64,000 nucleotides of DNA from Pontibacter sp. G13 (GTDB lineage Bacteria; Bacteroidota; Bacteroidia; J057). The position numbers and the translations under genes are program-made. The stretch lies in contig NZ_CP134696.1 in assembly GCF_031851795.1 (NCBI RefSeq), positions 4,422,501 through 4,486,500 on the forward strand. Reading direction: 5' to 3'. Numbering within the stretch: position 1 is the first letter of the stretch; each line of letters opens with the position of its first letter. Of this stretch, positions 29,493 through 44,429 are shown piece by piece. The notes under the pieces are model-generated. The model made no database searches. It saw only the letters and a program-made list of their open reading frames with translations, and was not told the origin of the DNA.

Positions 29493-29523
29493 CCGATTTT
29501 TTCTCATCCACCGCCATCATGTC

Positions 29524-29574
29524 ATCCTGAACGTCCATCGCCGAGGCCCATTGCGATGGTAGGCGATTCAGGAT
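29524..29574. repeat. REP-like hairpin ATCCTGAA...TTCAGGAT
   Basis: A nested inverted repeat: outer arms ATCCTGAA and TTCAGGAT, inner arms CCATCG and CGATGG. It resembles the common GTCATCCTGAAC-type hairpins of Bacteroidota genomes (from memory) and marks the left edge of the repeat island. Confidence 0.65.
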
Positions 29575-29606
29575 CTCTTGGGGCGCTGGGCATTCATCCC
29601 TCCCAA

Positions 29607-30018
29607 GATTCTGAATAAATCACTGGCACACAGGTCTGCGCTTCAGATTTTCCAGAATGACACAAGAGCTTCGTTTAGCATCTGTTTAATTCCCCCATCC
29701 CGTCATTCCAGCCTGCCATCAGCCATGGCCTGCACGGCGGCGGCAGAGGTGGAATCTGCTGAGCCGTATTTCGGCAATTGCACCGGCCCGTGGGTAATCC
29801 GGCTCCTGCTCGCAGGGCATCCAAGGAAAATCGCCAAGTGGACCTGTGGGGTGGGCTTCTTTTTCAGTAAAGGAGCCCGCAAGAAGCTCCTATACTGAAA
29901 AAGGCATTCATGCTTGTGCTTGGCAAAAGACTAGCCTTGGCATGCACGTAGCGTGAGATCCCGCATAAATTTCCCGGCCCACAGGTGCCATCGCATCGAA
30001 ATTTTGCGGGATGAGGGA
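29607..30018. repeat. Composite repeat element (B-S-hairpin-R), 412 bp
   Basis: Modules in order: hairpin B (GATTCTGAATAAATC...CAGATTTTCCAGAAT, 29607-29662); a linker shared with 37199-37292; palindrome S (29758-29806); a hairpin TTTTTCAGTA...AAAAA partly decayed; and module R ending GCGGGATGAGGGA. The same modules recur at 32856-33227, 36166-36436, 36705-37076 and 37142-37375. Translations of this stretch look protein-like only because it is repeated. Confidence 0.85.
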
Positions 30019-30065
30019 GATTTTTGGGAGTGGTTTTGGCATAGCACTTTCTGTCATCAATCTTC

Positions 30066-30165
30066 TACCTCATCCCTGAAAATCCCGTGGTGGCCAGTGT
30101 GCGAGGCGGGATTTATCAGGGATCTCGCGTCCCTGCAACGGGAGCCGCAGGTTGGGCGCCCGTAG
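30066..30165. repeat. L half-element
   Basis: This copy of module L starts TACCTCATCCCTG and includes the stem CCCTGAAAATCCC/GGGATTTATCAGGG and the tail GTTGGGCGCCCGTAGGG. It is 47 bp from the R end of the preceding composite and abuts the gene remnant that follows. Confidence 0.85.
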
Positions 30166-30763
30166 GGGGGGATTCCGTAATTATCCACCTGGCAAAATAT
30201 CAGATTTATCAGACACCCATTACCCGACCGATATAAAGTTGGGGAATTTTCTTCCATACGAAAATCTTGACTATGTGGGATTGGGAGCAGGGGTCATCGT
30301 AGGCTGTGGTCCAGCTGGAGGTAAAACTTGGTCAGCGGGATATCTGAAGGGGATGGGATACACAGTTTCTTCCTCAACTGAAATAGGAGCAGCTATAGGG
30401 GCAGGAGGTTCAATTGAACTGGCGATGCTTGTATTCTATGGAAATACTGTAGCGACCGTTGAAAATTTTGAAGGAGAGGGGTTTATTGCGGGCGCAAGCT
30501 GGAAATATATTACCGCAAGCTACTTCAGAAGTGCAGATAATAGATGGAGAGGGTTCTCTGGGGGAATTGGTGTCGATGTTGCTGATATAGTAACTCCATT
30601 TGATTTATTGAGGGTGACCCCTCACCTGCTCTATACAAGATCTAAAGCTACCTTCCCCGAACGCATAAATCTCCAATATCAATTGCGGGAAAAGGACTGG
30701 AATACAAACTTGATAAAAAAACCAACTACCTTCAAAAAGTTTCGACTCTACCATCGACACTAG
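30152..30763 (+). pseudogene. Gene remnant, Gly-rich C-terminal fragment (possibly Rhs/polymorphic-toxin tip)
   Basis: The frame is open for 203 codons but has no ATG before about codon 67; the only early start is a TTG inside the repeat tail, so the 5' part of the original gene seems to be missing. The visible part is glycine-rich with beta-strand spacing (LGAGVIVGCGPAGGKTW, SSSTEIGAAIGAGGSIELAM, ENFEGEGFIAGASW). It reminds me of the C-terminal ends of Rhs/YD-repeat proteins in Bacteroidota, but this is recognition from memory and is uncertain. It is followed 14 bp later by a TonB-like gene. It may be a displaced 3' end left by repeat-mediated recombination. Confidence 0.45.
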
Positions 30764-30777
30764 TTAAAAAATGACTT

Positions 30778-31278
30778 ATGATTCCCTTTGAATTTTTCCA
30801 CTACCGACTCCCTAACCCTCTGGTCCTTATTGTGTTGTTTATTTTTCAGTTCCCGCTTATATCGTTCGGGCAGGAGGATAGGAAAAATCCTGAGATTATG
30901 GTTAGCCCAGAACCTCTTTTTGATACCACCTGGGCAAATGGGCGGATAATTGCAATTACAGCACTCAAGAAAATTGAAAAAACTGCACCGTACTGGGGTA
31001 ACGGAGAGGACGATTTTCTCTATTTTGTTGGAAGCAACCTTGCCTATCCGGAAGATGCCAAGCTCAACGGGATTGAAGGTGGCGTTACCGTAGTCCTGAC
31101 GGTTCATGAGGATGGGAGCACATCAATATTTGATGTCTTTGATATAGGATTTGGAACCAAAGAGGAAGCAATACGACTTATTGAATTGTCAGGCTGTTGG
31201 AATCCGGCCATTAACAAAGAAACCGGACTTCCCATTCAATCCACGATTTTGGTCCCTATCCCATTCAAATTGAATTGA
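30778..31278 (+). CDS. TonB C-terminal-domain protein, exported
   Basis: The 166-residue protein begins with a signal or anchor segment (PLVLIVLFIFQFPLISFG). The last 80 residues match the TonB_C fold: LAYPEDAKLNGIEGGVTVVL, a polar VHEDGSTSIFDVF strand and WNPAINKETGLPIQSTILVP. There is no proline-rich spanning region, so it is not a classical energy transducer and may be a periplasmic TonB-like stand-alone domain. Small proteins of this type are frequent in Bacteroidota accessory regions. It follows the Gly-rich remnant and is followed by a bidirectional terminator at 31447. Confidence 0.7.
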   Translation: MIPFEFFHYRLPNPLVLIVLFIFQFPLISFGQEDRKNPEIMVSPEPLFDTTWANGRIIAITALKKIEKTAPYWGNGEDDFLYFVGSNLAYPEDAKLNGIEGGVTVVLTVHEDGSTSIFDVFDIGFGTKEEAIRLIELSGCWNPAINKETGLPIQSTILVPIPFKLN

Positions 31279-31446
31279 ATAGGCGTATGCTTGAATCCAC
31301 CGAATTCTCATGAAGTTTATTCGTAGTTGCTCTGTGATTTCAAGACCTTTTTCCGTTTCATGTAATGTTGGAACATTTCGACTAATCACTTAACCTGCTC
31401 TTCAAATCGAGACTTGAAACTTGGCTCCATCGATAGCGCCCTTCCT

Positions 31447-31492
31447 AAAAAGCCCGGATCTGATCCCCATCGAAACCAAATCCGGGCTTTTC
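31447..31492. terminator. Bidirectional intrinsic terminator
   Basis: AAAAGCCCGGAT and its exact complement ATCCGGGCTTTT enclose a 20-nt loop, with T runs on both sides. It separates the rightward TonB-like gene from the leftward DUF4143 ATPase gene. Confidence 0.8.
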
Positions 31493-31567
31493 TATGTAGC
31501 ATGATCGGGCATTGGAAATAGCGGTCTATGATCTGTCGTCCTTACAGGACTTGTCTCTAGCTAGGCG

Positions 31568-31617
31568 GGAGCTGGATTACCCACGGGCTGGCGCACTGGC
31601 CGAAATCCGGCTCAGCC
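31568..31617. repeat. REP-like palindrome S (inverted orientation)
   Basis: GGAGCTGGATTACCCACGGG...CCGAAATCCGGCTCAGCC. The GGCTGA on the minus strand provides the stop codon of the ATPase gene at 31612, so the palindrome sits exactly at that gene's end. Confidence 0.8.
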
Positions 31618-32742
31618 ATTTGGTCCTTCCATGACGAACTCCCCGAAATTGTCTCTGTGAATAACCTGCGTTTCTGCGTGATAAGTCTCGCGAAATGATT
31701 TGGGGAACTTGGTCGTCCGCTTGGGACTCCACTTGAATTCGTAGCCGGATATTTGGCCGTCTCGCTCTTCCACGAGATCTACTTCTTGGCCCTGTTTGGT
31801 GCGCCAAAAATACATATTGGTGAAGGTGCGGTGGTATTGATGGTATTTGAAGCGCTCGGCCATGAGGAAGTTTTCCCACAAAGCGCCGATGTCCTGCCGA
31901 TTGATCAAAGGAGCGAAATTCCCGATGAGCGTATTCCGGATGCCATTGTCGAAAAAGTAGATCTTTTGGCTGGTCTTGAGCTCGTTTCGCAGATTTCGGC
32001 TGAAGCCGCCCAGCCTGAAAATGACAAATCCATCACAGAGAATATCCACATATCGAATGACCGTTTTGACGTCGATTCCAGCCAATTGCGATAATTCATT
32101 GTAGCTGATCTTGTTTCCGACCTGAAAAGCCAGCGCACGGACGAGCTTCTCCAGCGCGTCAGGGCGTTTGATCGAGGAAAGTGAGAGGATGTCCCGATAC
32201 AGATAGCTGTCAGCAAGCGTCGTGAGAATTTCGCGTTCATTTCCGGTATGATTGAGAACATCGGGATAGCTTCCAAATATCAATCTTTCCTCAAGGGTTT
32301 GGATGGCCCGGAGATAGCCGATAGAATGCTCGTATTCTTCCCAAGAGATTGGAAAAAGCTGAAATTCCCATTTTCTGCCAGTCAGTGGCTCATTGATTTG
32401 GTGGGCGATATCGAAAGAGGAGGAACCCGAGGCAAACAATTGTACCTCCTGAAATTGGTCGGTGATGAGTTTCATCGTGATGCCAATCTCGGGAATCCGC
32501 TGTGCCTCGTCGATGAATACATAGCGGTGGTTACCGATCAGTCTGGCAAGTTGGGTGGTGGAGATGCCCGTCAGTTGCCTCCGGATGGCGGGATCATCTC
32601 CATTGAGGAATAGGTATGGGCTATCTCTCAAGATCTTTTTGAGCAGCGTCGTCTTGCCCACTTGGCGAGGGCCTGTCAAGATGATCGCTTTTCCTTTGGA
32701 TATCCGGTGCTGAATTTCGGACTCAATTGTGCGAAGGAACAT
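31612..32742 (-). CDS. AAA_14/DUF4143 ATP-binding protein
   Basis: This 376-residue protein of the common bacterial ATPase-plus-DUF4143 family starts with an AAA domain with Walker A TGPRQVGKTTLL (about residues 23-34) and Walker B YVFIDEAQRIPE (about 72-83). A DUF4143 region then carries a nuclease-like core (GQEVDLVEERDGQISGYEFKW), similar to restriction-endonuclease folds with the D...ExK pattern. Its role is unknown; members are frequent in accessory DNA and vary between strains. The stop codon lies inside a REP-like palindrome, but the C-terminus has the expected family length, so the protein looks complete. Confidence 0.85.
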   Translation of the reverse strand: MFLRTIESEIQHRISKGKAIILTGPRQVGKTTLLKKILRDSPYLFLNGDDPAIRRQLTGISTTQLARLIGNHRYVFIDEAQRIPEIGITMKLITDQFQEVQLFASGSSSFDIAHQINEPLTGRKWEFQLFPISWEEYEHSIGYLRAIQTLEERLIFGSYPDVLNHTGNEREILTTLADSYLYRDILSLSSIKRPDALEKLVRALAFQVGNKISYNELSQLAGIDVKTVIRYVDILCDGFVIFRLGGFSRNLRNELKTSQKIYFFDNGIRNTLIGNFAPLINRQDIGALWENFLMAERFKYHQYHRTFTNMYFWRTKQGQEVDLVEERDGQISGYEFKWSPKRTTKFPKSFRETYHAETQVIHRDNFGEFVMEGPNG

Positions 32743-32855
32743 GACCTTTATGGAGTTGATTCCGTATAAGTTATGACTTTTGTGGAATTAGTTCCGCGAA
32801 AGTTTGAAAAATGATTGGGTATTCGCTGGTATAGCCTTTTATGTTTCCTATCTTT

Positions 32856-33227
32856 TGCCTCATCCCTGAAAATCCTGCGGCGGATACGTGCGCAGGAGGA
32901 TTTATCAGGGATCTCGCGTCCCTGCAACGGGAGCCGCAGATTGGGCGCCCGCAGGGCAGGATGGATGCTGAGCCGTATTTCGGCAAGTGCTCCGGCCCGT
33001 GGGTAATCCGGCTCCTGCTCGCAGGGCATCTAGTGGGGATCGCCGAGGGGGCCTGTGGGGTGGGCTTCTTTTTCAGTAGAGGAGCCCACAAGAAGCTCCT
33101 CTACTGAAAAAGGCATTCATGCTTGTGCTTGGCAAAAGACTAGCCCCGGCATGCACGTAGCATGAGATCCCGCATAAATTTCCCGGCCCACAGGTGCCAT
33201 CGCTTCGAAATTTTGCGGGATGAGGGA
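32856..33227. repeat. 372-bp modular element with terminal inverted repeats, copy 1
   Basis: Ends: TGCCTCATCCC on the left and GGGATGAGGGA on the right (inverted, one mismatch). Internal order: stem CCTGAAAATCC/GGATTTATCAGG; tail TTGGGCGCCCGCAGGG; palindrome S (32967-33015); a perfect 17-bp hairpin (33069-33085 with 33095-33111, TTTTTCAGTAGAGGAGC); and module R with GATCCCGCATAAATTT pairing with AAATTTTGCGGGAT. The copy at 36705-37076 has exactly the same length. It contains no transposase and is MITE- or BIME-like. Confidence 0.9.
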
Positions 33228-33308
33228 GTTTTGGTATAACATCTTATTCTTTATTGGGCTGTCGTTGAATCAGTCGACTCTAGAGAATCAGTTGTTTAAT
33301 TTCCAATA

Positions 33309-33758
33309 ATGATGGGAGAAAGAATTCTAAAAGCTTTACTATTCGGAATTGTTTGCCTAGTAGTATCCTGCTCAACTAAACTTGAAAATATATTGGAGGG
33401 CGGATGGACTGTCCAAAAACTCATCTATAAGGGGGAATCGTATATGCCGATTCTTATGTCTAATGTGCTTGTTTTCAATGATAATGGAAGCGTGATGTGC
33501 TTTAGGGTAAGTGAGGTTGAGAGTTACAGGGGTTCCTACCAAATTATTCATGACAATGGGTTGGAACATATTCGTTTATGCATCCCGGACAATCCATTTG
33601 ATGACATGTATGAAATCAGCTTTCATCTTGATCAAGAAAAGCAATTATTGATCATGCATCTTGAAAATGAAAATTCCCAAATAGATGCTTCAAAGATGCT
33701 TTTCAATTTTGGCAAAGATTTACATCAGGTCCCATCACATTTAATTAATAGGCGCTGA
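33309..33758 (+). CDS. Lipocalin-like lipoprotein
   Basis: The 149-residue protein has a lipoprotein signal (LLFGIVCLVVSC, Cys21) followed by an all-beta body. GGWTVQKLIYKGE at the start and alternating strands (VLVFNDNGSVMCFRV, YRGSYQIIHDNG) match the lipocalin-like DUF families common in Bacteroidota. Ligand and role are unknown. It is framed by repeat elements on both sides (32856-33227 and 33770-33990) and its DNA is more AT-rich than the core genome here, so it may be accessory or acquired. Confidence 0.65.
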   Translation: MMGERILKALLFGIVCLVVSCSTKLENILEGGWTVQKLIYKGESYMPILMSNVLVFNDNGSVMCFRVSEVESYRGSYQIIHDNGLEHIRLCIPDNPFDDMYEISFHLDQEKQLLIMHLENENSQIDASKMLFNFGKDLHQVPSHLINRR

Positions 33759-33815
33759 TTTAGAAATGTGTGCCATCGCTTCGAAATTTTGCGGGATGAG
33801 GGAGTTCATTGATCG

Positions 33816-33967
33816 GGAGCCGGATTATCCACGGGCCCGTCCTTCCGGACGAAATTCGGCGCAGCCAAGAGGGGCCTTTGGCATAGCATCTTATGCTCCA
33901 TGTTTTCGTCTCATCCCTGAATCTTGTGCTGGAGCCGGATTACCCTCCAACCGAAATCGGGCTTCAC
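33816..33967. repeat. Two S palindromes and R fragment
   Basis: Two copies of the REP-like palindrome (33816-33866 and 33931-33967) follow a 3' remnant of module R (33767-33802, GAAATTTTGCGGGATGAGGG). Between them is the linker TTTGGCATAGCATCTT that also follows R elsewhere, then a stub of L. Confidence 0.75.
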
Positions 33968-34022
33968 AGGAACGCAAGATTTTTATGATTCACAACCCCC
34001 TTTTATTATTTTGAAGATCAGT

Positions 34023-34619
34023 ATGAAAGATCTAATAGTATTTATGAAGAAGGAAATTTTTCCTTTATGTATGGTATGTTCTGTGGTAAATCATTGGAGA
34101 GCGTTCATCCCTTTTTTTCTCGGCCTAATTCTTTTGGGTTCGGGGTGTCAAAGAAATGATGCTGAAATAGGTGCATTCCGTCTTCTAGAATCTCTGAATA
34201 AAAAGGAGATTTCCCTTGTGGGATTTGAAAAGGTGACTCATCAAATGGAATGGGAAGGCAGTGAGTATGACTGGTATTTTCGAAAAATAGACATTGGAGA
34301 TACAACGATCCAGATCTTCACCCAAAATTCTGGCGAGCTGTCCAATGTACTGATATACATTCCTTGCAATAGCATAGCAAACTGTAAGGATGTGGTGACA
34401 TCGTGGCTGGGAGATCGTTTGACGATGAGTCTTGACACCTTGGACTTTCAGAAACTATCTATAGCTTCTGTCGGGGAATTCAGGTTTCCGGATTCTGAAA
34501 TAGTTTATAAGACTTTTCTTCATCATCACGACAATATCTATGAAAGTGGATACGGCATTCGGATGTCTACTCGGATTAGGACTCCGGATCAAGGTTGGAC
34601 GCGTATGTTTGACAAATAG
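34023..34619 (+). CDS. Hypothetical lipoprotein
   Basis: The 198-residue product has a lipoprotein signal ending FFLGLILLGSGC. Three ATGs are possible (34023, 34044, 34071); 34071 gives the shortest signal (26 residues). The mature part is mixed alpha/beta, with SLNKKEISLVGFEKV early on and no motif I recognise. It shares a faint opening pattern, LLESLNKKEIS, with the lipoprotein at 35538 (LIESLKQEEVS), so the two may be diverged relatives. It lies in the repeat island and its DNA is AT-rich. Confidence 0.55.
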   Translation: MKDLIVFMKKEIFPLCMVCSVVNHWRAFIPFFLGLILLGSGCQRNDAEIGAFRLLESLNKKEISLVGFEKVTHQMEWEGSEYDWYFRKIDIGDTTIQIFTQNSGELSNVLIYIPCNSIANCKDVVTSWLGDRLTMSLDTLDFQKLSIASVGEFRFPDSEIVYKTFLHHHDNIYESGYGIRMSTRIRTPDQGWTRMFDK

Positions 34620-34786
34620 AGGTATTAAGCTTTTTAACGAATGCAGTCAGTAGGGCTGGATTACCTAGAGGGCGACGTAGGGAACAAAATCTGTCTTAGC
34701 TAGCGTGCATGGACTTTATCGGAGAGCTGGACAATCGCGATTTTAGGTAATAGATCAACTCCTGTTATTTTCGAAAAAATTGCTTC

Positions 34787-35323
34787 ATGGAACAGAATGA
34801 ATTAGAAAGGGGATTCTTTCCGCAAAATCCTTGTTCAGAAGTAAAAGCGATATTGAAGGAAGCATTCTTTTGGGAAACTGTGAATGAAACTTCTCCATTT
34901 GGGAGTGAGTATGGGGCTGATACTTTGATAGGATTTGTTGAGTGGCGAGCTAAAAATCCCCAAGGGAAAGTCTTAGAATTTGCCTTTTTGGAGATCGAGT
35001 CTTTTGGTTTTGAGCATACACACCTTAAGGTGTTAGATGAAAACAAGGTTAGAAATTTAGTCTCTCAATATCAGTTAGACCCGTTTGCTCAGGATTGGAT
35101 AGTAATTGCCGCTGCATTTGCACAGTATGTTTGGGAAGGAAACATAGATTCTGCATTGCTTTCTCAAGCTGTTATTTCCACCAGAAGGCAGAAAACGGCC
35201 TTTATTTTAGAATACTGGAACCCTTCCGTGAGGGAAGAGAGGGCGGAGAAGCTAGAAGTGATGTTGAGATCCCTGGAGGTAATTAAGCGTAACTCTTCGA
35301 ATATAAATCTGGAAGAACCCTAA
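34787..35323 (+). CDS. Hypothetical cytoplasmic protein, immunity-protein-like
   Basis: The 178-residue soluble protein has no signal peptide. The N-terminal part is acidic and aromatic (FFWETVNETSPFGSEYGADTLIGF) and the C-terminal half is helical and charged. Small stand-alone proteins of this kind often accompany polymorphic toxins as immunity proteins in Bacteroidota, and the Gly-rich remnant at 30152 could be a toxin-gene fragment, but no specific family match is claimed. The gene is intact, begins ATG, and sits between a degraded S fragment (34650-34675) and palindrome S at 35363. Confidence 0.5.
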   Translation: MEQNELERGFFPQNPCSEVKAILKEAFFWETVNETSPFGSEYGADTLIGFVEWRAKNPQGKVLEFAFLEIESFGFEHTHLKVLDENKVRNLVSQYQLDPFAQDWIVIAAAFAQYVWEGNIDSALLSQAVISTRRQKTAFILEYWNPSVREERAEKLEVMLRSLEVIKRNSSNINLEEP

Positions 35324-35362
35324 TAGGTAGCCCCTGCTCGGGCGGGAGAAGGCTTTTCTCTT

Positions 35363-35410
35363 GCGCCGGATTACCCACGGGCCGTCCTGCTGGCCGTAAT
35401 TCGTTGCAGG
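35363..35410. repeat. REP-like palindrome S, diverged copy
   Basis: GCGCCGGATTACCCACGGGCC...GGCCGTAATTCG, in the inverted orientation relative to the 372-bp elements. Between it and 35538 a short frame (35457-35559) ends in the start region of the next gene and could be the tail of a lost gene; I cannot prove it. Confidence 0.65.
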
Positions 35411-35537
35411 CAGTAGGGAAGATATTAGAGCATAAACAAATGGTGATTTAATTTTTTGGGCGGGACTGCAAGAGCAGCTATTATGTTGGCAGCAACTACC
35501 GCAAATAATACTTATTCAGGAAGTAAAACAGGAAACC

Positions 35538-36014
35538 ATGGAAAAACTGAAAAAGACTAGAAAGTGCTTAAGCATGAGATTATTAGTGGCCTCTTTTATG
35601 GTTCTATTTGTCTCTTGTAAAAAGAGCCCAGACCATAGAAGTCAATTGATTTTTGACTTGATAGAATCGTTGAAACAGGAAGAAGTGTCGGTAGGTATGG
35701 TGCAGTCTAAATATTTCTTTGAAGAGGAAATTGCGGAATCAGAAGATAAGTATGGGCTCTATTTATTGATATTGTCTTCATTCAGGGATGAAATCAATAA
35801 AAGCTCCGAAGCTGAAGTTTTGCTTTATCAGGAGGCAATAGATCAAGAAATAGATGTTTACCGAATTGATGGTAATGCCGAAGACATTTATGTGATACTT
35901 CTGAAAGATAAAGAAGGTGAAATTTTCAATAAAACCTACTGTCTGATGAGTGAGGGCAAAATACAGTCATTATCAGTTTTACGAAAAGGCCAAACGGTTA
36001 TTGGTTGGAACTGA
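35538..36014 (+). CDS. Hypothetical small lipoprotein
   Basis: The 158-residue protein has a lipoprotein signal (LLVASFMVLFVSC, Cys27) and an acidic mixed alpha/beta mature part (EEEIAESEDKYGLYLLIL, IYVILLKDKEGE). No known motif. Its opening LIESLKQEEVS resembles the lipoprotein at 34023. It is AT-rich and bounded by repeat modules, as are the other small genes of this island. Confidence 0.55.
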   Translation: MEKLKKTRKCLSMRLLVASFMVLFVSCKKSPDHRSQLIFDLIESLKQEEVSVGMVQSKYFFEEEIAESEDKYGLYLLILSSFRDEINKSSEAEVLLYQEAIDQEIDVYRIDGNAEDIYVILLKDKEGEIFNKTYCLMSEGKIQSLSVLRKGQTVIGWN

Positions 36015-36165
36015 TTGGGAGTGTGGGTGAGTGTTCAGAGAGAGTTAGACTATCTGCGTCAACTGCCTAATTGTCCCATGCATCAGATCTTGAGCTAGAC
36101 ATAGGACCTTCCCTCACCGGAAGGTCCTGTTCTTTTGGCGGCTTGGGGAATGATGGCAGTTCTGG

Positions 36166-36436
36166 TTGGGCGCCCGCAGGGCAGGATGGATGCTGAGCCG
36201 GATTTCTGCAAGTGCTCCTGCCCGTGGGTAATCCGGCTCCTGCTCAGATCGCCAAGGGGGCCTGTGGGGTGGGCTTCTTTTTCAGTAGAGGAGCCCATAA
36301 AAGGCTCCTCTACTATAAAAGGCATTCATGCTTGTGCTTGGCAAAAGACTAGCCTTGGCATGCACGTAGCGTGAGATCCCGCATAAATTTCCCGGCCCAC
36401 AGGTGCCATCGCTTCGAAATTTTGTGGGATGAGGGA
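36166..36436. repeat. 5'-truncated copy of 372-bp element
   Basis: Starts within module L at TTGGGCGCCCGCAGGG, contains palindrome S (36192-36240), lacks about 20 bp after S, keeps the hairpin (AGAGGAGCC...GGCTCCTCT) and ends with R, GTGGGATGAGGGA. Right after it comes the constant linker with TTTGGCATAGCG. Confidence 0.85.
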
Positions 36437-36501
36437 GATTTTTTTGAGGTGGCTTTGGCATAGCGTTTTCTGAGACATCTCTTTTGCCTCATCCCTCCCA
36501 A

Positions 36502-36558
36502 GATTCTGAATAAATCCCCCGGCGCACTGGCCTGTGCTTCAGATTTTCCAGAATGACA
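36502..36558. repeat. Hairpin module B
   Basis: GATTCTGAATAAATCC...CAGATTTTCCAGAATGACAC, a diverged reverse relative of hairpin L, also at 29607 and 37142. The stretch from here to 36704 is unique and I see no gene in it. Confidence 0.75.
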
Positions 36559-36704
36559 CAGGAGGAGTGGACTTGGAATTCATGCACGAGCTCAGGAGAT
36601 CCCCGATCGGCGCCGACGCTGGGGCCATGGCTATGGCCGCCGAGGATGACGTGTGGGGCTTGGAGTTTGGGATCGAAAGATCAGCCAATCCCTTCAAAAC
36701 ATAT

Positions 36705-37076
36705 TGCCTCATCCCTGAAAATCCTGCGGCGGATACGTGCGCAGGAGGATTTATCAGGGATCTCGCGTCCCTGCAACGGGAGTCGCAGATTGGGCGCCCG
36801 CAGGGCAGGATGGATGCTGAGCCGTATTTCGGCAAGTGCTCCGGCCCGTGGGTAATCCGGCTCCTGCTCGCATTACATCCAGTGGGAATCGCCAAGGGGG
36901 CCTGCGGGGTGGGCTTCTTTTTCAGTAGAGGAGCCCACAAGAAGCTCCTCTACTGAAAAAGGCATTCATGCTTGTGCTTGGCAAAAGACTAGCCTTGGCA
37001 TGCACGTAGCGTGAGATCCCGCATAAATTTCCCGGCCCACAGGTGCCATCGCTTCGAAATTTTGCGGGATGAGGGA
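36705..37076. repeat. 372-bp modular element with terminal inverted repeats, copy 2
   Basis: Same length and module order as 32856-33227: TGCCTCATCCC left end, L stem, palindrome S (36816-36864), hairpin, R, GGGATGAGGGA right end. Sequence differs by few substitutions, so the copies are recent or kept similar by conversion. Confidence 0.9.
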
Positions 37077-37141
37077 GATTTTTTTGAGGTGGCTTTGGCA
37101 TAGCGTTTTCTGAGACATCTCTTTTGCCTCATCCCTCCCAA

Positions 37142-37375
37142 GATTCTGAATAAATCCCCGGCGCACAGGTCTGCGCTTCAGATTTTCCAGAATGACACAA
37201 AAGCTTCGTTTAGCATCTGTTTAATTCCCCCATCCCGTCATTCCAGCCTGCCATCGGCCAAGGCCTGAGCGTTGGCGGCAGAGGTGGAATCTGCTGAGCC
37301 GTATTTCGGCAATTGCACCAGCCCCCGTGGGTAATCCGGCTCCTGCTCAGATCGCCAAGGGGGCCTGTGGGGTGG
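37142..37375. repeat. B-S composite, 3'-truncated
   Basis: Hairpin B, the linker seen at 29663-29757 and palindrome S (37293-37343) in order, then GATCGCCAAGGGGGCC before it stops at GTGGGGTGG. Sequence 37376-37578 is unique; a short frame through it (ending 37479) is too small to call. Confidence 0.8.
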
Positions 37376-42478: not shown

Positions 42479-42608
42479 TGCCTCATCCCTGAAAATCCCT
42501 GCGCTGGCATCCGCGCTCGGTGGGATTTATCAGGGATCCCATGTCCCTACAACGGGAGTCGCAGATTGGGCGCCCGTAGGGCAGTGAAAATGCCCCCCCA
42601 CCACCTTT
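42479..42608. repeat. 130-bp L half-element
   Basis: Starts TGCCTCATCCCTGAAAATCC; stem CCCTGAAAATCCC with GGGATTTATCAGGG; tail GGGCGCCCGTAGGGCA, then a spacer GTGAAAATGCCCCCCCACCA. First unit of the array. Confidence 0.9.
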
Positions 42609-42852
42609 TGCCTCATCCCTGAAAATCCCTGCGCTGGCATCCGCGCTCGGCGGGATTTATCAGGGATCCCACGTCCCTACAACGGGAGTCGCAGATTGGG
42701 CGCCCATAGGGCAGGATGTATGCCTAGCGAGGAAAATTCCGATCATTTCTCTCCCGGCAAAAGACAAGCCCTAGCATGCACGAAGCGTGAGATCCCACAT
42801 AAATTTCTCATCCCACAGGAGCCATCGCATCGAAATTTTGCGGGATGAGGCA
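42609..42852. repeat. 244-bp element with 11-bp perfect terminal inverted repeats, array copy 1
   Basis: Left end TGCCTCATCCC and right end GGGATGAGGCA are exact inverted repeats. It contains hairpin L and module R (GATCCCACATAAATTT...GAAATTTTGCGGGAT) but lacks palindrome S and the 17-bp hairpin of the 372-bp form. Confidence 0.92.
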
Positions 42853-42866
42853 GATGTTTATTGTAT

Positions 42867-43165
42867 TTAAGATTTATGGAAAATATCATCATAGAGGGCA
42901 TTCCACTCCCAATTCTCTTTTTCAATTAATTCCTCCTTCCAAGCCCGTTTCCATCGTTCCAGTTTTTTTCAAAGTCAAAAGCGTCGGTGAGGTCATGAAA
43001 GCCTCTATAGAAAACCAATTTATGTATCCGGTACTTTTGCACATGAGAAGAGCCTTCCCCAGACTTATGTTGATGGATACGATTAGGAAGGTCTTTTGTA
43101 ACTCCTACATAGAGGGCTGTATGGGAGGAGTTTGTCATCATGTACACATATGCCTCATGCTCCAT
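42867..43165 (-). pseudogene. Frameshifted GIY-YIG nuclease gene (copy A)
   Basis: This is nearly identical to the intact copy at 43720-44019. The N-terminal 56 residues are the same, but one T is missing from the T run near 42968 (seven here, eight in copy B). The reading frame therefore shifts after DAFDFEK and ends early, losing the charged C-terminal helix. It is on the minus strand between the right end of one 244-bp element and the left end of a 130-bp unit, as is copy B. It is probably inactive unless slippage on the homopolymer restores the frame. Confidence 0.85.
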
Positions 43166-43201
43166 GGTAGATGGATAATTTATTGATTTCACATAAAATA
43201 A

Positions 43202-43461
43202 TGCCTCATCCCTGAAAATCCCTGCGCTGGCATCCGCGCTCGGCGGGATTTATCAGGGATCCCATGTCCCTACAACGGGAGTCGCAGATTGGGCGCCCGT
43301 AGGGCAGTGAAAATGCCCCCCCACCACCTTTTGCCTCATCCCTGAAAATCCCTGCGCTGGCATCCGCGCTCGGCGGGATTTATCAGGGATCCCACGTCCC
43401 TACAACGGGAGTCGCAGATTGGGCGCCCGTAGGGCAGTGAAAATGCCCCCCCACCACCTTT
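43202..43461. repeat. Two tandem 130-bp L half-elements
   Basis: Units at 43202-43331 and 43332-43461, both beginning TGCCTCATCCCTG and both followed by the GTGAAAATGCCCCCCCACCA spacer. The exact 130-bp period points to tandem duplication. Confidence 0.92.
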
Positions 43462-43705
43462 TGCCTCATCCCTGAAAATCCCTGCGCTGGCATCCGCGCT
43501 CGGCGGGATTTATCAGGGATCCCACGTCCCTACAACGGGAGTCGCAGGTTGGGCGCCCGCAGGGCAGGATGTATGCCTAGCGAGGAAAATTCCGATCATT
43601 TCTCTCCCCGCAAAAGACAAGCCCTAGCATGCACGAAGCGTGAGATCCCGCATAAATTTCCCATCCCACAGGAGCCATCGCATCGAAATTTTGCGGGATG
43701 AGGCA
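43462..43705. repeat. 244-bp element with 11-bp terminal inverted repeats, array copy 2
   Basis: Same length and ends as 42609-42852. The distance between the two starts (853 bp) is the period of the larger duplication that carries the GIY-YIG gene. Confidence 0.92.
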
Positions 43706-43719
43706 GATGTTTATTGTAT

Positions 43720-44019
43720 TTAAGATTTATGGAAAATATCATCATACAGGTCATTCCACTCCCAATTCTCTTTTTCAATTAATTCCTCCTTCCAAGCCCG
43801 TTTCCATCGTTTCAGTTTTTTTTCAAAGTCAAAAGCGTCGGTGAGGTCATGAAAGCCTCTATAGAAAACCAATTTATGTATCCGGTACTTTTGCACATGA
43901 GAAGAGCCTTCCCCAGACTTATGTTGATGGATACGATTAGGAAGGTCTTTTGTAACTCCTACATAGAGGGCTGTATGGGAGGAGTTTGTCATCATGTACA
44001 CATATGCCTCATGCTCCAT
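43720..44019 (-). CDS. GIY-YIG family nuclease (copy B, intact)
   Basis: A 99-residue single-domain GIY-YIG protein. The two signature strands are AYVYMM and ALYVGVT (GIY and YIG positions), the conserved Arg is in LPNRIHQHKSG, and a Glu-rich helix (EELIEKENWEW) can supply the metal-binding Glu. Members of this size are common in Bacteroidota and are annotated as UvrC-like or homing-type endonucleases, but no function is proven. The ATG at 44019 is chosen; the frame extends to a GTG at 44046. It is bounded by GGGATGAGGCA on one side and TGCCTCATCCC on the other, so the gene sits in the linker between repeat elements. Confidence 0.82.
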   Translation of the reverse strand: MEHEAYVYMMTNSSHTALYVGVTKDLPNRIHQHKSGEGSSHVQKYRIHKLVFYRGFHDLTDAFDFEKKLKRWKRAWKEELIEKENWEWNDLYDDIFHKS

Positions 44020-44054
44020 GGTAGATGGATAATTTATTGATTTCACATAAAATA

Positions 44055-44185
44055 ATGCCTCATCCCTGAAAATCCCTGCGCTGGCATCCGCGCTCGGCGG
44101 GATTTATCAGGGATCCCATGTCCCTACAACGGGAGTCGCAGATTGGGCGCCCGTAGGGCAGTGAAAATGCCCCCCCACCACCTTT
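44055..44185. repeat. 131-bp L half-element
   Basis: Same as the 130-bp units with one extra base. It lies directly behind the GIY-YIG copy B start. Confidence 0.88.
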
Positions 44186-44429
44186 TGCCTCATCCCTGAA
44201 AATCCCTGCGCTGGCATCCGCGCTCGGCGGGATTTATCAGGGATCCCACGTCCTTACAACGGGAGTCGCAGATTGGGCGCCCATAGGGCAGGATGTATGC
44301 CTAGCGAGGAAAATTTCGATCATTTCTCTCCCGGCAAAAGACAAGCCCTAGCATGCACGAAGCGTGAGATCCCGCATAAATTTCTCATCCCACAGGAGCC
44401 ATCGCATCGAAATTTTGCGGGATGAGGCA
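44186..44429. repeat. 244-bp element with 11-bp terminal inverted repeats, array copy 3
   Basis: Last unit of the array; same length and ends (TGCCTCATCCC, GGGATGAGGCA) as copies 1 and 2. No GIY-YIG gene follows; unique sequence leads to the DUF1573 gene. Confidence 0.9.

Follow-up and report, generated by a model that had tools for sequence, protein, structure and literature searches.

Between positions 42479 and 44429 of the 64,000-nucleotide stretch of Pontibacter sp. G13 DNA that we analysed (the window), seven left and three right repeat modules are arrayed with two near-identical GIY-YIG nuclease genes in their linkers, which raises the question of whether the gene belongs to the repeats or lies among them by accident. 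Ten exact copies of the 11-mer TGCCTCATCCC mark the array, seven on the + strand (starting at 42479, 42609, 43202, 43332, 43462, 44056 and 44186) and three on the − strand (ending at 42852, 43705 and 44429); when up to one mismatch is allowed, the whole 64 kb holds 23 matches against 2.4 by chance. These positions bear out the original prediction of exact 11-bp inverted termini, of three 244-bp full elements and four half elements (130 bp each), and of a larger period of 853 bp, which we measured as 853–854 bp. Written as left (L) and right (R) modules, the order is L, L-R, gene, L, L, L-R, gene, L, L-R. The array opens with a half element, a left module on the + strand (42479-42608) that forms the tagged hairpin TGCCTC-ATCCCTGA...TCAGGGAT-C followed by a tail, and continues with the first full element (42609-42852), in which a left module is joined to an inverted right module. 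Beyond the first gene-bearing linker (42853-43201) lie two half elements (43202-43331 and 43332-43461, both left modules on the + strand) and the second full element (43462-43705); beyond the second linker (43706-44055) come another half element (44056-44185, left module, + strand) and the third full element (44186-44429).

A GIY-YIG gene had been predicted in the linkers, and both do encode a PF01541 protein on the − strand (Pfam matches of 8.7e-16 and 2.4e-13), but only the second copy is intact (43720-44046, 108 aa). The first (42867-43192) has lost one T from a T-run, and the resulting frameshift leaves an 88-aa open reading frame (42926-43192) with the rest out of frame. Because the copies are so alike, the amplification of the array must be recent. 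Elsewhere in the window the same repeat family occurs without a GIY-YIG gene: as right and left modules at 29922-30167, where the linker of about 50 bp that had been noted is found at 30017-30067, as a dimer at 32856-33227, and as a right module plus a dimer at 36340-37076. GTCAT-tagged palindromes of other families are intermixed with the TGCCTCAT family across 29521-37290, between small, partly lipoprotein-like genes.

The elements were originally described as terminal-inverted-repeat elements; their inverted ends are real, but each full element is better read as two palindromes with outward tags. Compared as reverse complements, the left and right modules are 75% identical over 65 bp, and both take the same fold, in which an unpaired TGCCTC is followed by an 8-bp stem, one bulged base and a 7-bp stem. 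Since the modules are related and fold alike, the full elements are head-to-head dimers of one repetitive extragenic palindrome (REP). Rfam gave no match within the array and a single sub-threshold match, Acido-Lenti-1, just upstream of it, and we rejected a reading of the array as structured RNA.

A superfamily of such repeats has been described. CGTC REPs carry an unpaired CGTC tag, often TGTC or CCTC, on an 8-bp outer stem that opens with a complementary AT and encloses a loop of 4–5 nt; they are mostly head-to-head dimers with the tags outside, dispersed between genes, and dRS3 of Neisseria and the RPE repeats of Rickettsia are counted among them (Di Nocera 2013, PMC3733652). A scan for tagged palindromes (GTC or CTC, then a stem starting with A) recovered the window modules as CTC-ATCCCTGA...TCAGGGAT and CTC-ATCCCGCA...TGCGGGAT. 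Their tag is TGCCTC followed by AT, where relatives carry GTC, and their outer stems, ATCCCTGA/TCAGGGAT and ATCCCGCA/TGCGGGAT, open with the complementary AT and measure 8 bp, within the 8–9 bp of the superfamily. They are also dispersed, with 85 matches at about 23 places in the 7.67-Mb genome, and the head-to-head arrangement recurs around homologous genes (31 of 45 loci; see below). The loop is where they depart, being 35–39 nt in the window and enclosing the second, 7-bp stem, against about 5 nt at most relatives' loci. The window repeats thus belong to the CGTC-tagged REP superfamily in its CCTC form, though only as a divergent relative with a long loop.

The protein of copy 2 retains the catalytic residues Y17, Y28, G30, R38, H42, E75 and N94, which are invariant or nearly so in an alignment of 39 sequences. 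For this protein, structure prediction (pLDDT 87.6) gives a lone GIY-YIG domain that ends in a short C-terminal helix and lacks any additional domain for DNA binding. The closest solved structures are UPF0213 BH0048, Slx1-Slx4 and the N-terminal domain of UvrC, the nearest being 1zg2 (UPF0213; E 2.4e-9 by profile and 1.3e-4 by fold). Branched or distorted DNA is the substrate of Slx1 and UvrC, and this kinship suggests that the enzyme would recognise a hairpin rather than a long sequence. Among pairs that were not nearly identical and had countable substitutions, dN was mostly a tenth of dS or less; judged from these substitutions, the gene is under purifying selection. A defence or phage role was considered and rejected, as neither PADLOC nor PHROGs contained a matching family.

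Within its own genome, the gene has little to tie it to the elements: it is present at just one of the approximately 23 element loci, the array itself, and the exact window repeat is absent from 59 relatives. A third GIY-YIG gene of this genome (at 2025762; L085 2532-5047, G000:C1:2023531-2026047) adjoins ten tandem 216-bp repeats that contain CGTC-ATACCGGA...TCCGGTAT. We do not take these as proof of dispersal, since they form a local array and leave only weak traces elsewhere in the genome.

The count of elements in the genome and its relatives, which the original prediction had proposed as a check, therefore went against the link when confined to the exact repeat and pointed to an accident, but the flanks of homologous genes overturned that reading. 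Species-representative genomes were scanned, yielding 80 loci that hold this GIY-YIG clade and span Bacteroidota, several classes of Pseudomonadota, CPR lineages, Campylobacterota, Elusimicrobiota and others. Self-comparison of loci in relatives revealed repeats that hug the GIY-YIG gene and differ in sequence genome by genome; across the 80 loci, local repeats account for 37–41% of the sequence up to 100 bp from the gene, against about 1–8% beyond 400 bp. Had the genes of this clade mostly lacked such elements, the link would have been spurious, yet strict tagged palindromes flank the gene within 250 bp at 60 of the 80 loci, and on both sides at 45 of them, in a sample that was drawn as the top-scoring hits of a Bacteroidota query and is not phylogenetically independent. 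Three control tags were found at 9 of 80 loci each, a background that GTA/CTA tags do not exceed (9 of 80). Among the remaining 20 loci, nearly all show GTCAT/ATGAC or variants close to them, on stems that are imperfect. Homologues are almost always bracketed by genome-specific palindromes of the CGTC type.

A test free of any motif gave the same tags. GTCAT was the most enriched pentamer upstream of the gene, at 56 of 79 loci where 12.2 would be expected, and downstream this rank fell to ATGAC, at 65 of 77 loci against an expected 11.0. Palindrome density was 5.74 per kb beside the gene and 1.10 per kb in the rest of the intergenic DNA at these loci, where 16% of regions held a strict palindrome. 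With palindromes on both sides, the nearest pair most commonly has its tags outward (31 of 45 loci); the window gene sits between inward-facing tags, an arrangement found at 3 of the 45. The association fades as the GIY-YIG proteins diverge, from 15/15 through 66/93, 4/13 and 0/6 to 3/9. The two flanking stems of one locus resemble each other, differing by 1.58 mismatches against 3.10 between loci, a gap that none of 20,000 permutations reached, and stems grow apart along with the proteins (r = 0.29 between the two distances; 0 of 2,000), similarities that may derive partly from common descent of whole units and not from recognition. At four loci (L119, L162, L178 and L182) the GIY-YIG frame ends within the downstream REP and takes its TGA stop from ...CAGGATGAC or CAGGGTGAC there. 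On plasmid p1 of Planktothrix agardhii (L277) a GIY-YIG gene lies among GTCATTCTGAG repeats, between an MmeI-like restriction-modification gene and the DISARM gene drmA.

Three species of the published survey carry the same pairing. Azospirillum lipoferum 4B, Novosphingobium aromaticivorans and Sinorhizobium meliloti, all named as carriers (PMC3733652), each have a GIY-YIG gene bracketed by CGTC palindromes. On plasmid AZO_p3 of A. lipoferum 4B (L274 2486-2779) sufB and sufC enclose the unit, which has a dimer at either side, and its palindrome reads CGTC-ATCCCCGC-GAAG-GCGGGGAT-CCA. N. aromaticivorans has CGTC-GCCCCGTG-CTTGA-CACGGGGC on both sides of the gene, and S. meliloti has CGTC-ATCCTCGG...CCGAGGAT-CCA beside it.

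Gene and repeat also co-occur across genomes. The canonical Bacteroidota form of the REP is present in 56 of 295 members of the class, in up to about 160 copies, and a reversed control pattern had no match in any of these 295 genomes. At a threshold of E ≤ 1e-10, the gene was found in 38 of the 56 genomes with the canonical REP and in 79 of the 239 without it (odds ratio 4.3, P = 3e-6). A more sensitive search of the 18 exceptions detected further genes in several, divergent or decayed (decayed in G069, G200 and G250), and found none in the REP-bearing genomes G021 and G219; G299, with 61 canonical REPs and 99% completeness, has only a weak GIY-YIG match inside a long open reading frame. REPs outlive their enzyme, as is known of REPs and RAYTs.

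Taken together, these observations make it probable that a mobile CGTC REP unit has the GIY-YIG enzyme as its dedicated nuclease, in the way that GTAG REPs have RAYT. The main rival, which we regard as unlikely, is that the gene is a homing-like parasite, a selfish sequence that lands in pre-existing REP dimers, cuts them and is copied in without spreading the REPs. It draws on the fact that GIY-YIG is a classical homing nuclease fold, on the large excess of gene-less over gene-bearing dimers, and on the existence of some REP-rich genomes that lack the gene. It fits less well with the agreement between the two stems that flank a gene, and with what is seen, in a few examples, when sites are compared between related species. 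In the genus of G040, of which we compared 36 species, the GIY-YIG gene of G040 lies within a 375-bp unit that runs from GTC to GAC; G329 has the same insertion. The orthologous sites of the congeners G325 and G307 hold neither gene nor REP (identity of about 85%, too diverged for exact junctions or a target-site duplication to be read). Empty and filled sites, which the original prediction had proposed to compare in close strains, thus exist among congeners, and because the empty sites are free of REPs, it seems that the whole unit, and not just the gene, came in.

Homology between units at unrelated sites includes the REPs as well. Congeners of G040 hold five REP-GIY-REP units at other positions that share homology with its unit; in four of the five the left edge of that homology is no more than 2 nt from the left GTC, in the fifth (G316) it falls inside that hairpin, and the right edge lies 3–24 nt past the GAC tag. 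Shared homology that stops at or near the tags indicates that the unit, REPs included, changed places. Overall, left ends lay within 3 nt of GTC in 53 of 186 pairs and right ends within 3 nt of GAC in 84 of 186, against 6% at random, totals on which our argument does not rest. In family member G002 (G002:C5; L086 3858-5495), two identical GIY-YIG genes lie in a 599-bp tandem duplication together with their repeats, which is independent of the 853-bp repeat of the window and similar in kind. One genome (G145) holds eight matches of this GIY-YIG family and is a good candidate for ongoing mobility.

It is less likely still that the gene is a passenger, carried along in REP units whose movement is due to host repair or to a different enzyme, for instance an HUH transposase. 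Small genes caught in repeats can hitch-hike, and the Pontibacter genome does have two HUH Y1 transposase genes (G000:C1:1435526, L099; G000:C1:5488564, L100), one of them RAYT-like in length. Each is embedded in a different palindromic repeat family, however, and neither adjoins elements of the window type, so we rejected both as mobilisers of these elements; several repeat-plus-enzyme systems appear to run in parallel in this genome. The published survey likewise encountered no tyrosine transposase flanked by CGTC REPs, transposase genes alone having been monitored (PMC3733652). The absence of an HUH gene near the elements and the recurrence of one gene clade, under purifying selection, across many phyla both speak against a passenger role. 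An accidental local event, in which unequal crossing-over duplicated elements and gene that have no functional link, would suit the near identity of the 853-bp copies, the broken gene copy and the uniqueness of the place in its genome, but it explains the array and not the clade-wide bracketing by tagged palindromes, and on these comparative data it is already disfavoured and very improbable.

We therefore return to the dedicated nuclease of a mobile REP unit; the confidence expressed above attaches to that description, and the chemistry of cutting is graded on its own. At the level of sequence comparison, the association of gene with REPs, the mobility of the units and the conservation of the enzyme are all supported, and the earlier guess of a REP-mobilising nuclease stands to the extent that the link is systematic and that units occur at different sites with ends at or near the tags. 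How such a nuclease might act is more tentative. By analogy with Slx1 and UvrC, the protein could recognise, in single-stranded or cruciform repeats, the hairpin together with its unpaired tag, and could cut at the tag, a proposal to which we give somewhat less than even weight. Repair of the resulting break or flap by copying would then spread REP-gene-REP units, gene-less dimers might be mobilised in trans, and unequal exchange would build tandem arrays such as the 853-bp repeat. For the locus itself, the best explanation is that a widespread mobile unit, made up of a small GIY-YIG gene and tagged palindromes of the CGTC type, has undergone a local amplification here. We put forward, slightly less guardedly than the proposed recognition and cutting but still short of an even chance, that REP-GIY-REP constitutes a new class of mobile element in many phyla, whose sole gene encodes a nuclease that would cut the end hairpins, move the unit and spread gene-less dimers in trans.

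The prediction of an undescribed nuclease-linked repeat system holds as far as the open-access literature shows: in PubMed Central we found no paper that pairs GIY-YIG with REPs or with CGTC, and nothing relevant when the search was broadened. If our reading is right, what is new is the pairing of known repeats with a known protein fold, and thus an unrelated enzyme in the REP-plus-enzyme scheme. The spread of CGTC REPs, present in many phyla with no transposase found, has long been puzzling, and a dedicated GIY-YIG nuclease would explain it. A large group of proteins that bear no annotation beyond 'GIY-YIG nuclease family protein' or 'excinuclease ABC subunit C' would gain a role as well.

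Several known systems share features with the unit. With the CGTC REP superfamily it has in common the tag with its CCTC and TGTC variants, the 8-bp outer stem starting with AT, head-to-head dimers and intergenic dispersal, and A. lipoferum, N. aromaticivorans and S. meliloti belong to both the published set and ours. It differs in the two-step stem of the window (8 bp, bulge, 7 bp) and its long loops in place of 4–5 nt, and in having a GIY-YIG gene bracketed by REPs that were published as ones that "apparently lack a dedicated transposase" (PMC3733652). UPF0213 proteins (YhbQ-YazA, COG2827) have the same single-domain GIY-YIG fold, but UPF0213-like relatives of the YILKCADGSYYTGST type in the same genomes are mostly without tagged palindromes. 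GIY-YIG homing endonucleases share the nuclease fold, the catalytic domain with its active-site residues and a mobile gene; the units described here, in contrast, are intergenic at varied places and end in hairpins, with no intron, intein, recognised conserved target gene or separate DNA-binding domain. In contrast to insertion sequences with a transposase of known class, the unit has no DDE, HUH, serine or tyrosine transposase; its sole open reading frame is the GIY-YIG gene. The closest parallel is with REPtrons, in which RAYT/TnpA_REP, an HUH enzyme, serves GTAG REPs. In both systems tagged hairpins flank a small nuclease gene and also occur, dispersed, on their own, both have outward tags in head-to-head dimers, and in both the enzyme is recurrently lost while the repeats persist. 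They differ in that the tag is CGTC/CCTC and not GTAG, and that the REP-flanked gene is PF01541, a hydrolytic GIY-YIG enzyme rather than an HUH Y1 (neither Y1 gene of this genome being near the elements), for which no covalent DNA-protein intermediate is expected. If true, the REP-GIY-REP unit would solve the problem that RAYTs solve a second time, and by a different chemistry.
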